This document shows, piece by piece, positions 25,031 through 55,195 of a DNA stretch of 64,000 nt. Position 1 is the stretch's first letter; each line of letters opens with the position of its first letter. The notes beneath the pieces were generated by a model. It worked only from the letters and a program-made list of their open reading frames with translations, ran no database searches and was not told the DNA's origin. The translations under genes and the position numbers were made by a program. Source of the stretch: an uncultured Ruminiclostridium sp. (GTDB lineage: Bacteria; Bacillota; Clostridia; Oscillospirales; Ruminococcaceae); the NCBI GenBank assembly GCA_949878745.1, contig CATLBH010000005.1, positions 21,765 to 85,764 of the forward strand. Reading direction: 5' to 3'.

Positions 25031-25079
25031 ATCATATTAAGCCCCGTTACATTCTTAAAATAAGTTCGGTAACTTTTCA

Positions 25080-25171
25080 TACCAATCCCTTATAAACTGA
25101 CGTCAAATCCATAGTTTAAAAAGGGATTGCACCCGAAACGCTAATCCCACGGTTTAAAAAAAGGATTAGTT
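25080..25171. mobile_element. 92 bp two-stem palindromic element (copy B) in fla/che operon
   Basis: TACCAATCCCTTATAAACT..AGTTTAAAAAGGGATT-GCACCCGAAACG-CTAATCCC..GGATTAGTT flanked by TCA (25077-25079) and TCA (25172-25174). Confidence 0.8.
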
Positions 25172-26299
25172 TCAATCCGCTTCCGGCAAGGCGGAGGGTA
25201 AAACCGTCTCCCCTTCGGCGGCGCCCGATATAAGCTCTTCCGCTTCCGCCGTCAGCTCGGGCTTGGCCTCCTTAACAGTCTTGGAGGCCTTTGCGTTTTT
25301 TGAAGTCCGAGCCGATTTTGGCTGAGGCTTCGGAGCGGGTTCGTCTTCTTCCCTGGGCGGTTCCTCTTCCTTATCCCTGAACTTTCCGCGCCCCAACTCG
25401 CCTATCATTTTAAGCTGAGTTGAAACACCCGCGTCGAATATTTCCGTTTCGTTTTCCAGCATCAGGGTACCGGATTCCGCGTCAACCACCTCAAATTCCA
25501 CATTGGCGGTGGGGGAGAAGCACTTTTCGTAAAGTCTGAAATCCGCTTCCATATCCTCGCTTAAATCGTGCTTTGAGAGGGTCACTTTTATGTTTTTGGT
25601 GTTTCTGAATTCCTTCGCGGCGGCGGATATCATTTTTTCCAGCGCTTTTTTATCCTTCTGACTGAACACCGTCATGGTTATTTTTTCCGCCACTTCCATG
25701 GCAAGGTCGAAAACGCTCCTGCGCTGTTCCGCCAGTATGTCCGCCTTTTCCTTTTCGACTTCGCCGCAAAAACGCTTAAGCTCCAAGAGACCGTCTTTGC
25801 ACTTTTTCAGTCCCTGAATATAGCCTTCCTCTTCGCCCTTCTTAAGACCCTCCATAAAGCCCTCGTCAAGGCCTCTTTTTCTTGCTTCATCATAGATTTG
25901 TTCCGACTTTTCGTCGATCTGGGTCAAAAGGCGTCTTCCCTTGTCCTTCGCTTCTTCTGTAATACGTTCCGCTTCTTCTTTTGCCTTCTCCAATTCGCTG
26001 TCGGCTCTTTTCCGCATTTCCACGGCGTATTCCTGACCTTCGCGGCGGTATTTTTCCCTAAGGTTTTCCAGTTCTTCAAAGTCTATTTTCGGGGGCTTCG
26101 GTTCTTTTTCTTCGCTTTCGGCGCCGTTCTCCCGAATTTCCTTTTCAGGCATGGATTCCTCCGAGGACTCGGTTTCTTTTTTTTCGCCGTCCGAAAGATC
26201 TTTTTCGTCCGTCTGATTTCCTATTCTGTTGTTTATTACGGCGTCGCCCTCTATTACTATGTTCTTAAAAGGATTACTGCCTTTGATAACTTCAAACAT
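25172..26299 (-). CDS. fliH: Flagellar assembly protein FliH
   Basis: Long charged coiled coil then GLLELKRFCGEVEKEKADILAEQRRSVFDLAMEVAEKI..; position between fliG and fliI. Confidence 0.88.
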   Translation of the reverse strand: MFEVIKGSNPFKNIVIEGDAVINNRIGNQTDEKDLSDGEKKETESSEESMPEKEIRENGAESEEKEPKPPKIDFEELENLREKYRREGQEYAVEMRKRADSELEKAKEEAERITEEAKDKGRRLLTQIDEKSEQIYDEARKRGLDEGFMEGLKKGEEEGYIQGLKKCKDGLLELKRFCGEVEKEKADILAEQRRSVFDLAMEVAEKITMTVFSQKDKKALEKMISAAAKEFRNTKNIKVTLSKHDLSEDMEADFRLYEKCFSPTANVEFEVVDAESGTLMLENETEIFDAGVSTQLKMIGELGRGKFRDKEEEPPREEDEPAPKPQPKSARTSKNAKASKTVKEAKPELTAEAEELISGAAEGETVLPSALPEAD

Positions 26300-36448: not shown

Positions 36449-36540
36449 TACTAATCCCTTTTAAAACTGTTGGATTAGTGCTTTGGGTGTAGTCCCTTTT
36501 TAAACTGTGTGTATTTCGTCAGTTTAAAAAGGGACTGGGA
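36449..36540. mobile_element. 92 bp two-stem palindromic element (copy A)
   Basis: TACTAATCC..GGATTAGT-GCTTTGGGTGTA-GTCCCTTTTTAAACT..AGTTTAAAAAGGGACTGGGA; TSD TAA (36446-36448, 36541-36543). Confidence 0.8.
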
Positions 36541-36549
36541 TAAAATACG

Positions 36550-36625: not shown

Positions 36626-36736
36626 TACTATTTTCAAATTAAAAAGATTACAAAACTTAGTGGATAATTTGAAAATAGTGCTTTGGGTGTAATTTCATCT
36701 TAAAAAGGTTAGAATCTTTTTAAGATGAAATTAGTA
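36626..36736. mobile_element. 111 bp two-stem palindromic element (copy C)
   Basis: TACTATTTTCAAATTA..TAATTTGAAAATAGT-GCTTTGGGTGTA-ATTTCATCTTAAAAAG..CTTTTTAAGATGAAATTAGTA; TSD TTA on both sides. Confidence 0.8.
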
Positions 36737-45889: not shown

Positions 45890-46097
45890 ATGAGACAAAC
45901 AAGAAGTTACGACAAGGAGTACAAGGTACAGGCGGTAAAGTTGGCGAAATCGAGGGGAAGGAAAGCAGCGGCAGCGAAACTGGGGATACCCGAGGGAACG
46001 CTTAGCGGGTGGGTTCACAAGGCGAAAAGCGGGCATATGGATTTGGGGTTCGGCGAACAAATATTCGAAACCGCGCTGACACTCGTCGCCGAAAACT
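45890..46097 (+). pseudogene. IS3-family OrfA (HTH) remnant, 3' truncated
   Basis: MRQTRSYDKEYKVQAVKLAKSRGRKAAAAKLGIPEGTLSGWVHKAKSGHMDLGFGEQ..; collinear with 50246 onward; identity ends near 46095. Confidence 0.85.
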
Positions 46098-46766
46098 AAT
46101 CAACGCAGTGCTGTACGTTGTTGACAGCGGCTGCAAATGGAGACAATTGCCACATGATTTTCCACCGTATACAACGGTATCGAATTTTTACTATAAGGCA
46201 GTTCGTGAGGGTTTATGGGAGAAAATATTGAAAGTAACGGTCATCAAAACTCGGACAGAAGCAGGAAAATCATCTGAGCCGAGTTATGCTCTGATTGATT
46301 CACAAAGTGTAAAACCCGTATATTCTTCAGATAAACGGGGTTATGACGGGGAAAAAACAAAAGGACGAAAACGACATATAGTAACCGATATCATGGGAAA
46401 TTTGCTTGCCGTTCACGTTCACGCTGCAAATATACATGACACAAAAGGCGGGGTGTATACTTTTGAAAAAGCGCTAAATCATTATCCAAGTATAGAAGCC
46501 GGCTGTGCCGATGAGGGTTACAGAGGAACGTTCAAAAATACATTCGAAATATTCCATAACATTAGAATTGATATTTCAAAACAGATAAAGCCTGTTTTTG
46601 AGGTTATGCTCAAACGTTGGCGAGTGGAGAGAACCTTTTCATGGCTTGGTCATTCGAGACGTCTTTCTAAAGATTATGAAATCCAGACCGTTTATGCTGA
46701 ATCCATGATTATCATTTCCCATTTCCATACTTTACTTAAACGATTTTAGTCTATTGGTACAGGTTC
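46097..46766 (+). pseudogene. IS5-family transposase, 5' truncated, fused to the IS3 remnant
   Basis: LINAVLYVVDSGCKWRQLPHDFPPYTTVSNFYYKAVREG..DSQSVKPVYSSDKRGYDGEKTKGRKRHIVTD..; lacks the N-terminal DLTDAQWELIKEYFP segment; right end ..GGTACAGGTTC|TAA. Confidence 0.85.
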
Positions 46767-46870
46767 TAATAAATAAATTGAAAAAAGCTTATAATGAAAA
46801 ATAAAATATTGACATAGTTTTTTGTTAATGGTAAAATGTAAGTAATAATTTGAAAGGATGGTGCTTTTAT

Positions 46871-48702: not shown

Positions 48703-49505
48703 GTACTTGTCCAAATAGAAAAAATATGGTATAATAGAATAATGAGATACACAAGTGATTTAACGGACGCACAGTGGGAACTGATAAAAGAATATTTTCC
48801 GGCAGGAAACAAAAGCAAGTACGAGAAAAGAGAGATGGAGAATGCAGTATTATATCTCGTAAAAACAGGCTGCCAATGGAGAAATCTGCCGATAGATTTT
48901 CCAAAATGGAAAGCAGTTTCAATGTTCTTTTATCGTGCCAAAAAGAATGGGGCATGGGAAAAGGCACAACGTATGTTGGTGAAAAAAATCCGTACCCAAA
49001 AGGGAAAAAATGAAGAACCGACATACGCACTAATAGACTCACAATCCGTAAAAACAACCTCTGCAAATGATAATAGAGGTTATGACGGGGGAAAAAACAA
49101 AAGGACGAAAGCGACACATAGTTACTGATACTTGGGGAATCTTTTGTGTGTTCATGTGTATGCTGCAAATATTCATGATACAAAGGGCGGCGTGCTTACC
49201 TGTGAAAAGGCGCTTTATCGTTATCCGACAATTGTTGCGGGGTGCGCTGATCAAGGTTATCGCGGAACATTCAAAAATACTTTTGAGTTTTTTCATAATA
49301 TCAGAATTGATATATCTCCACGCATTAAAAATAATTTTGAGGTGCAGCCTATTCGTTGGATTGTCGAACGGACTTTTGGATGGATGACTTGGTCTCGCCG
49401 TCTTGCCAAAGACTATGAAATTAAATCCGTTTATGCTGAAACTATGTGCACTATTTCAAACCTTGATACGCTTTTGCGTAGATTTTAGTCTATGTGGAAA
49501 AGTTC
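48703..49505 (+). mobile_element. IS5-family (IS427/IS1031-like) insertion sequence, 803 bp, TSD TTA
   Basis: TIRs GTACTTGTCCAAATAGA / GAACTTTTCCACATAGA; flanked by TTA (48700-48702) and TTA (49506-49508); transposase MRYTSDLTDAQWELIKEYFPAGNK.. within. Confidence 0.85.
48742..49488 (+). CDS. IS5-family transposase in two overlapping frames (48742..49128 and 49132..49488)
   Basis: Frame changes at GACGGGGGAAAAAACAAAAGG (about 49084); the related copy at 46350 reads GACGGGGAAAAAACAAAAGG in one frame. Confidence 0.8.
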
Positions 49506-52685: not shown

Positions 52686-53645
52686 TTATTTGCTTATATG
52701 CTTATCTATATCCGTTACTGATAAACGGAATTTCAGCACCTTTTCCGTCCACTGCAAAATATCCTCGTAAACCTCCTGCCTGTTGATCTCGTTGATAAGC
52801 TCGTGCCGCGCGTCAATGTACATTCTGACGGTAACGTTCTTCATTCCCGCCTTTTTGAGTCTTCCGTACACTTTTCTTACGCCCTTTCCGAAATCGCCTA
52901 TGGGATCCTCTTCGCCACTCATCAGCATAACGGGCAGATCTTTGGGGAGCGAATACGACCATTCTCTTTTGGAAACCTCGGACAACAGTCTTACCAAATC
53001 GCGGTAGGCTCCAGAGGTGAAGGCGAAATTCCCCAAAGGATCGGTTTTATAATACTCGATTTTTTCCTTGTCGCGGGTTATCCAGTCCAATTCGCTGCTC
53101 TTGTCGCTGACCCGTCTTGTGAGAAAATGGTAGAACATCCATTGACCCTGATCCAAATGCGTCTTTGTCCCCGTGACGTTTTCCAAAAGCCTAACGGCGG
53201 CTCCCGCCGCTCCGTCTGGCACCCCGCTGCCCGTTCCCATATAAAGAGCCGCGCTTACGGATTCCGGATACCATGAAGTATAGAGCCTGGCAATAAAGCT
53301 TCCCATACTGTGCCCGAAAAGAATGACGGGGGTATCGGGGTATTTTTCTTTTATAATATCCGTCATTCTCTTTTCGTCCCGCACCAGAAAGCGCCAGCCG
53401 TTGTATTCCGAGAAAAAGCCCTTGTCCTCTTCGGTAACGGCGGTGCGCCCGTGTCCTAAATGATCGTCTCCCGCCACCGCGTAGCCGTTATTGGACATAA
53501 AACCCGAAAACTCGGCGTAACGGCCGAAGTATTCGCACATTCCGTGAACCACCTGTATAACTGCCTTGGGCTTTTCACCGCCCGTTGGTTCTATTATTTC
53601 ATAATGTATCTGTTTGGTTCCTTCCGAGGATAAGAAGTTAGGCAT
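52686..53645 (-). CDS. Alpha/beta hydrolase (monoacylglycerol lipase-like)
   Basis: VIQVVHGMCEYFGRYAEFSGFMSNNGYAVAGDDHLGHGRT..VILFGHSMGSFIARLY (GHSMG nucleophile elbow). Confidence 0.9.
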   Translation of the reverse strand: MPNFLSSEGTKQIHYEIIEPTGGEKPKAVIQVVHGMCEYFGRYAEFSGFMSNNGYAVAGDDHLGHGRTAVTEEDKGFFSEYNGWRFLVRDEKRMTDIIKEKYPDTPVILFGHSMGSFIARLYTSWYPESVSAALYMGTGSGVPDGAAGAAVRLLENVTGTKTHLDQGQWMFYHFLTRRVSDKSSELDWITRDKEKIEYYKTDPLGNFAFTSGAYRDLVRLLSEVSKREWSYSLPKDLPVMLMSGEEDPIGDFGKGVRKVYGRLKKAGMKNVTVRMYIDARHELINEINRQEVYEDILQWTEKVLKFRLSVTDIDKHISK

Positions 53646-54084
53646 GTTTTTTCTCCTTTCTTACGTTTCCGTTTGCGTTTCCGCTTATCTCGCTATAGCT
53701 CTTGTCTATAAATTCAAAAACGGTGTCCGTATCTACCGTACCGTCCAGCAGAATTGTGAGCCGGTTGTTTTTGTTCATATGATATCCGTGAAAAAAGCCG
53801 TCGGAGCGCGTCATAAAGTCTACTAACAGCGGCTCGCACTTGACGTTGAGTATAAATACACCGTCATAGCTTTCAAGTCCCAACTTGCTTTTGGAAACCT
53901 TCATCACAACCGCGTACAATTTACCGTTTCTGTGTCTTATACTAATCTTTGGTCAGATTATAGACAAAAAATGTTGACCAAAGATTAGTATTAAAACTGC
54001 GCTTTCCGGAGAATTTTCCCACAGATATTCGGGAGCGGTGCCGAATTGGGTTTTTACGTAGTCGAAAACAAGGTCTTTAAACAT
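53638..54084 (-). pseudogene. MmcQ/YjbR family protein interrupted by a 51 bp palindromic element
   Basis: MFKDLVFDYVKTQFGTAPEYLWENSPESAVL | insertion with TGA | RHRNGKLYAVVMKVSKSKLGLESYDGVFILNVKCEPLLVDFMTRSDGFFHGYHMNKNNRLTILLDGTV. Confidence 0.88.
53940..53990. mobile_element. 51 bp single-stem palindromic element (copy D), TSD TTA
   Basis: TACTAATCTTTGGTCA-gattatagacaaaaaatgt-TGACCAAAGATTAGTA flanked by TTA (53937-53939) and TTA (53991-53993). Confidence 0.88.
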
Positions 54085-54970: not shown

Positions 54971-55033
54971 CTTAAATTGCCTCTCCTTTTGGACTTGTAA
55001 TTTTAAGGGAATTGATGTATAATTGATATTTAG

Positions 55034-55195
55034 GGAACCGCTGATTAAATCGGTGTGTGCATATTGCGCGGCAGATTTTTCGTCAGATTATACAAATTCG
55101 ACGCAGGCGGGCTAGCGCCCGTCAAGGAGAAGTTGTGCAATCTGACGGAAAATATGCAAGCAAGATGTGCGCATCCGATTTAATCAGTGGTTCCT
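55034..55195. mobile_element. MITE-like element M6 (162 bp, TIR GGAACCGCTGATTAAATCGG, TSD TTAG)
   Basis: GGAACCGCTGATTAAATCGGTGTGTGC ... GCGCATCCGATTTAATCAGTGGTTCC flanked by TTAG on both sides. Confidence 0.85.

Follow-up and report, generated by a model that had tools for sequence, protein, structure and literature searches.

The 64,000-nt stretch of genomic DNA analysed here (the window) carries on its minus strand an mmcQ/yjbR gene (53638..54084) that is interrupted by a short hairpin, with ..ESAVL on one side of the break and RHRNGK.. on the other. The hairpin consists of a left arm TACTAATCTTTGGTCA (53940..53955), a 19-nt loop GATTATAGACAAAAAATGT (53956..53974) and a right arm TGACCAAAGATTAGTA (53975..53990) that is the perfect complement of the left. 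It is flanked by two copies of a duplicated target, TTA at 53937..53939 and TTA at 53991..53993. An initial annotation made from the sequence had described a 51-bp palindrome with TTA repeats, containing a perfect 16-bp stem and a 19-nt loop, and the sequence, the coordinates and both parts of the hairpin proved exact. The arms are 100% complementary over 16 bp, or over 17 bp with one flanking A/T included, and folding of the insert as RNA gives −26.5 kcal/mol, compared with an average of −7.4 among shuffled sequences (z = −7.9; z = −8.2 when folded as DNA). Read through the insert, the mmcQ frame becomes ..AVL ILIFGQHFLSII*PKIS IRHRN.., confirming the in-frame TGA that the annotation had assigned to the hairpin, at 53955-53953 (TCA at 53953-53955, within the left arm). 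The identity of the interrupted gene is supported by alignment to its relative in G092 and by Pfam, where the YjbR family PF04237 matches the downstream (3′) half with an E-value of 5.6e-12 and the intact G092 orthologue with an E-value of 1.4e-17.

The locus was compared by DNA search among 71 genomes of the host genus, in which the nearest relative at mmcQ is G092. The alignment of G092 to the window ends exactly at 53937 and restarts at 53993; at this point the sequence in G092 is GTTTTGAGACAC (V L R H), with a single TNA and exactly 54 bp fewer, and the gene runs on uninterrupted as ..CGVLRHRNGKWYAAVLKV... This bears out both the earlier proposal that the reading frame is continuous once the insert is removed and the prediction of an empty site in a sister genome, the single target copy being TCA rather than TTA. 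Related YjbR-like proteins in 18 other congeners are likewise encoded by open frames with no stops. In G008 (C2), G001 (C57) and G079 (C30) mmcQ is missing between its neighbours at this locus, suggesting that the gene is either dispensable or a recent gain in the host. Lineage-specific insertions relative to G092 are seen at mmcQ and at two further sites, L062:13830-13941 and L076:4624-4734, while a fourth candidate (L094) is messier.

The mmcQ hairpin is one of about 140 copies of its type in the 2.67-Mb host genome (G000). With at most two mismatches, the 16-nt arm gave 147 + 136 matches in this genome compared with 0 + 1 for the reversed control, and the hairpin is therefore not a chance occurrence; the same arm gave 0-3 matches, which is chance level, in each of 35 congeners. 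Some 0.85-1.0 Mb of host DNA was surveyed for the forms taken by the copies, and in it the mmcQ-type hairpin occurs as solo units of 50-52 bp bordered at either end by TNA and as double hairpins of ∼112 bp (hairpin 1, linker, hairpin 2). The mmcQ hairpin corresponds in sequence to hairpin 2 of the longer form, including its loop.

A search with the linker extended the family to a superfamily with the structure TNA / TACYAAT-hairpin 1-ATTR-CACCCRAARCAC-TAAT-hairpin 2-ATTAGTA / TNA, in which the linker variants follow CACCC(G/A)AA(A/G)CAC and are succeeded by TA(A/T)T before stem 2. The 12-nt linker and the ends (TACYAAT / ATTAGTA) are constant. The stems fall into at least seven families of unrelated sequence, each of which is still self-complementary; examples of stem 1 are CTTTAATCATATT, CCCTTTTTAAACTG, TTCATCTTAAAAAGG, AACCATTTTGAC, TTTTAATCAATC and TGCAATTAAATC. 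Among ten divergent representatives, 8-10 are paired at each of the 16 positions of stem 1, and 13 of these positions are occupied by two to four different Watson-Crick types. Despite the differing stems, 49 of 59 double hairpins measure 111-114 bp, and the solo hairpins of the superfamily span 34-65 bp. By far the commonest solos are hairpin 2 of the mmcQ-type family, and no solo of hairpin 1 of that family was among those found; there are also solos built on other stems that have perfect ends and duplicated TNA, as in TACTAATAACCATTTTGAC..TTATTAGTA at L199:1767 and a palindrome of 34 bp at L222:4213. The median identity among copies of the most frequent double-hairpin form is 98%, indicating a recent burst. 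The window itself holds other members: an intact 111-bp double hairpin with different stems, TACTAATTTCATC.. CACCCAAAGCAC ..AAAATAGTA, and TAA duplications on both sides (36626..36736, minus strand); a double hairpin of the CCCTTTTTAAACTG stem family ∼85 bp from it (36449..36541, minus strand, approximate ends); and a decayed double hairpin with the linker CACCCGAAACGC (25079..25173, plus strand, approximate ends).

Insertion at TNA is evident across the family. TNA lies on both sides of 54 of the 59 double hairpins, and its middle base is equal in 51 of these 54, where ∼26 would be expected from composition, so that 51 of 59 copies carry identical duplications; the same is true of 27 of 36 solo hairpins. 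In one nested copy (L090:11425-11630) a 92-bp element sits within another, and excision of the inner element together with one TAA restores a canonical outer element, which implies that the families were active at different times. Genes are avoided: judged by crude gene calls (longest ATG open reading frames), called frames contain 6 of 52 copies compared with 74% of random TNA sites, and five of the six lie in short, doubtful frames, leaving mmcQ as the single clear gene among the 52. The initial annotation had predicted palindromes of the form TACTAATC..GATTAGTA between TNA repeats elsewhere in the genome, and many are present in the host and also in some relatives; together with the empty site in G092, they give good support to its claim of a hairpin that moves, or once moved, into TNA sites, although most copies are double hairpins of ∼112 bp. 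The same 54 bp is not shared by all orthologues, and related palindromes are not lacking.

The linker pattern was found in 8 of 71 congeners with no matches for the control, the counts being 121 in G000, 86 in G016, 34 in G001, 23 in G092, 5 in G093, 4 in G079, 2 in G008 and 1 in G069. It was absent from 396 genomes sampled from the order, in which the congeners included are element-free ones. Structured linker matches across GTDB, among those listed, come from metagenome-assembled genomes (MAGs) of the same group, most of which are titled as Oscillospiraceae or uncultured Clostridia; contig sets were matched to genomes by position (JAAVIG to G016, JAAVIF to G001, CANDLP to G092 and CANEHP to G093). 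A MAG titled ‘Bacteroides sp.’ (JAMPHV contigs L285 and L303) also carries these elements, and since its match position corresponds to that of G008, a member of the host genus, this title looks wrong. Two linker matches in viral contigs have no hairpins, appear chance-like and were discarded. The exact mmcQ hairpin was not found in GTDB species genome contigs or viral contigs outside its own genome. The hairpin family is thus restricted to one lineage and is apparently undescribed: literature searches on the linker, the ends and MITEs in Oscillospiraceae returned nothing relevant, and in the literature searched, which did not extend to most subscription journals, no description was found of an architecture that combines free stems with fixed ends and linker.

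Several searches were made for an enzyme that could mobilise the family. Screening for paired ends with an open reading frame between them revealed no gene bounded by TACYAAT-type ends in the 2.2 Mb of host and related DNA covered, which included about 40% of the host genome read base by base, and a search of the host for long repeats that might represent an autonomous partner gave nothing with such ends. The DDE_Tnp_1 genes located in G000, G016, G001, G092, G093 and G079 likewise do not have these ends, and a PF13751 search gave weak or partial matches only. A single Y1 transposase gene is present in the host (G000:C18:17485), in an ordinary-looking IS200-type setting with no family hairpins beside it. 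G000 also contains resident IS5-type copies with GAACCTGT-like ends that resemble the IS1031 subgroup; at E 1e-30 their transposase has no match in 70 congeners, including G016, G001 and G092 (76-87% complete).

Other repeated DNA is found in and around the window. An IS5-type (IS1031-like) insertion sequence at 48703-49505 has TTA duplications and a decayed transposase containing one TGA, and interrupts another gene whose flanks, once joined, read on as ..GKLPYVTYEGVGESWG... A partial IS1031-type transposase at 46094-46767 is 95% identical to the intact G000:C4:92599, with an unrelated 5′ side. At 55031-55190 lies a 158-bp repeat, TTAGGGAACCGCTGATTAAATCGG..CAGTGGTTCCTTAG, with TTA flanks and many copies in the genome, which is absent here from G092; it is a second, unrelated MITE-like family. 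Further short repeat families in the G000 contigs (L058-L158) include TTAGAACCTGTCCACATAGGAATGG.., TAAGAAACTGTTCCAATAGGAATGG.. and GTCGGCGCGTCCTTGCGCCGAC.., and the same contigs hold non-coding repeats that are 400-800 bp long and occur about ten times.

Taken together, the mmcQ insert is very probably a MITE-like element, one copy in a non-autonomous family that duplicates TNA and is built on a dual-hairpin plan. Elements bounded by TACYAAT/ATTAGTA enter DNA at TNA and duplicate those three bases, most likely through a 3-bp staggered cut made by a DDE-type transposase supplied in trans; because no transposase with these ends was found, it is the duplication by itself that points to this type of enzyme, and an enzyme of another kind may be responsible. 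Such an enzyme would recognise the ends and the linker, and perhaps the extruded hairpins, since only these features are constant, and the stem sequence is free to change as long as the arms remain complementary. Single-hairpin units carry both outer ends and are the shortest form; the 51-bp unit may be able to move independently. A further-reaching proposal, which we advance tentatively and consider rather unlikely as a whole, is that the family is a distinct class of mobile DNA defined by its architecture: the ends and the 12-nt linker would be constant and the double hairpin fixed in length, while the stems are swapped wholesale for unrelated palindromes, and a clade-specific enzyme would read ends, linker and shape instead of a long terminal repeat of specific sequence.

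Which unit jumped into mmcQ can be viewed in another way that is compatible with the MITE-like reading and amounts to a variant of it. In copies of the mmcQ-type family hairpins 1 and 2 both start with ACTAATCTTT, and a 61-bp deletion between these direct repeats would turn a double hairpin into a 51-bp solo with the same target duplication as direct insertion would leave. The mmcQ copy might then have arrived as a 112-bp double hairpin, the 51-bp unit being immobile, and the prevalence of hairpin 2 among the solos of this family, with none of hairpin 1, speaks for such deletions. However, no known genome has a double hairpin at the mmcQ site, and the perfect-ended, TNA-duplicated solos with other stems, down to the 34-bp example, argue that solos can also insert directly; we therefore regard the deletion as a credible possibility, but not the one that we favour. 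The intergenic, clade-restricted distribution and the strong stem-loops could also suggest that the copies are functional RNAs or terminators, multiplied by duplications that took flanking DNA along. This is very improbable, as the flanks are unrelated between copies, the boundaries are sharp to the base with TNA duplicated, and empty sites exist in a related genome; there is also no Rfam match, a search of 124 kb containing several copies having returned tRNA only.

The remaining alternatives concern the enzyme. Short, high-copy, intergenic hairpins with compensatory stem changes and no adjoining autonomous partner recall REPINs (PMC3116915), and the one Y1 gene of the host could in principle encode a single-copy RAYT/IS200-like transposase that works on the hairpins of single-stranded DNA. 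Known REP tags at the foot of the hairpin are GTAG or CGTC (PMC3733652), whereas the copies described here end in TACYAAT. The sole Y1 gene, moreover, has no family hairpins in its IS200-type setting, and the hairpin elements show a clean 3-bp TNA duplication. Such a duplication is not expected from IS200/IS605-type transposition, and movement by a Y1 enzyme appears improbable. TNA is, on the other hand, the sequence targeted and duplicated by the IS1031 subgroup of the IS5 family (PMC12016507), and the presence in G000 of IS5-type copies with GAACCTGT-like ends, including the window copy flanked by TTA repeats, raises the question of whether the hairpins are MITEs of this resident insertion sequence. 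The ends are wholly different (GAACCTGTACCAATAG for the insertion sequence versus TACTAATCTTTGG for the elements). The distribution differs as well: G000 is the one member of the genus in which the transposase was found, with no match in G016, G001 or G092, where there are 86, 34 and 23 linkers. Because of these two differences we consider the resident transposase an unlikely partner, and derivation from this particular insertion sequence is largely refuted. A MITE-like family, most likely mobilised in trans, remains our preferred reading.

The family is a clear example from nature of how small bacterial mobile DNA can be: its elements measure 34-114 bp, show empty sites, target duplications and nesting, and number in the hundreds across a few related genomes. 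They also offer a marker of insertion history for an uncultured lineage of Clostridia. Their interchangeable stems and fixed linker pose the question of what the mobilising enzyme recognises and how new palindromic stems arise.

We class the family as MITE-like because every defining feature of MITEs that could be tested is present: the elements are short (typically 34-114 bp) and have no open reading frame of note and thus no transposase of their own, they have terminal inverted repeats (TACYAAT..ATTRGTA), and they show target-site duplications and empty sites in relatives, as well as a nested site. They share with bacterial MITEs (PMC10969869) a short, non-coding sequence with inverted ends, target duplication, high copy number and a mostly intergenic location with occasional gene disruption. 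In the MITE families of that review, however, each family is one sequence, often derived from an insertion sequence, whereas here many unrelated stems have nothing in common but the short ends and 12-nt linker around them, the two hairpins are joined in a fixed geometry, solos are as short as 34 bp and no parent insertion sequence was found. The TNA target and 3-bp duplication are those of the IS1031 subgroup (PMC12016507), but neither its GAACCTGT.. ends nor a transposase wherever the elements are abundant is seen. Rickettsia palindromic elements are likewise palindromic and located inside coding sequence, as at mmcQ, but are ∼150 bp long and commonly in frame within genes (PMC10969869), whereas here genes are avoided and the mmcQ insertion carries a stop. 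Similar to REPINs (PMC3116915), the family consists of small, high-copy, intergenic hairpin units that show compensatory changes and occur as singles and doublets. In contrast to REPINs with RAYT, they have a 3-bp TNA duplication and no RAYT was found beside the copies, the conserved tag and a repeat-flanked Y1 gene both being absent; and while REPINs conserve the REP sequence itself (PMC3116915), it is the ends and the linker that are constant here and the stems that vary.
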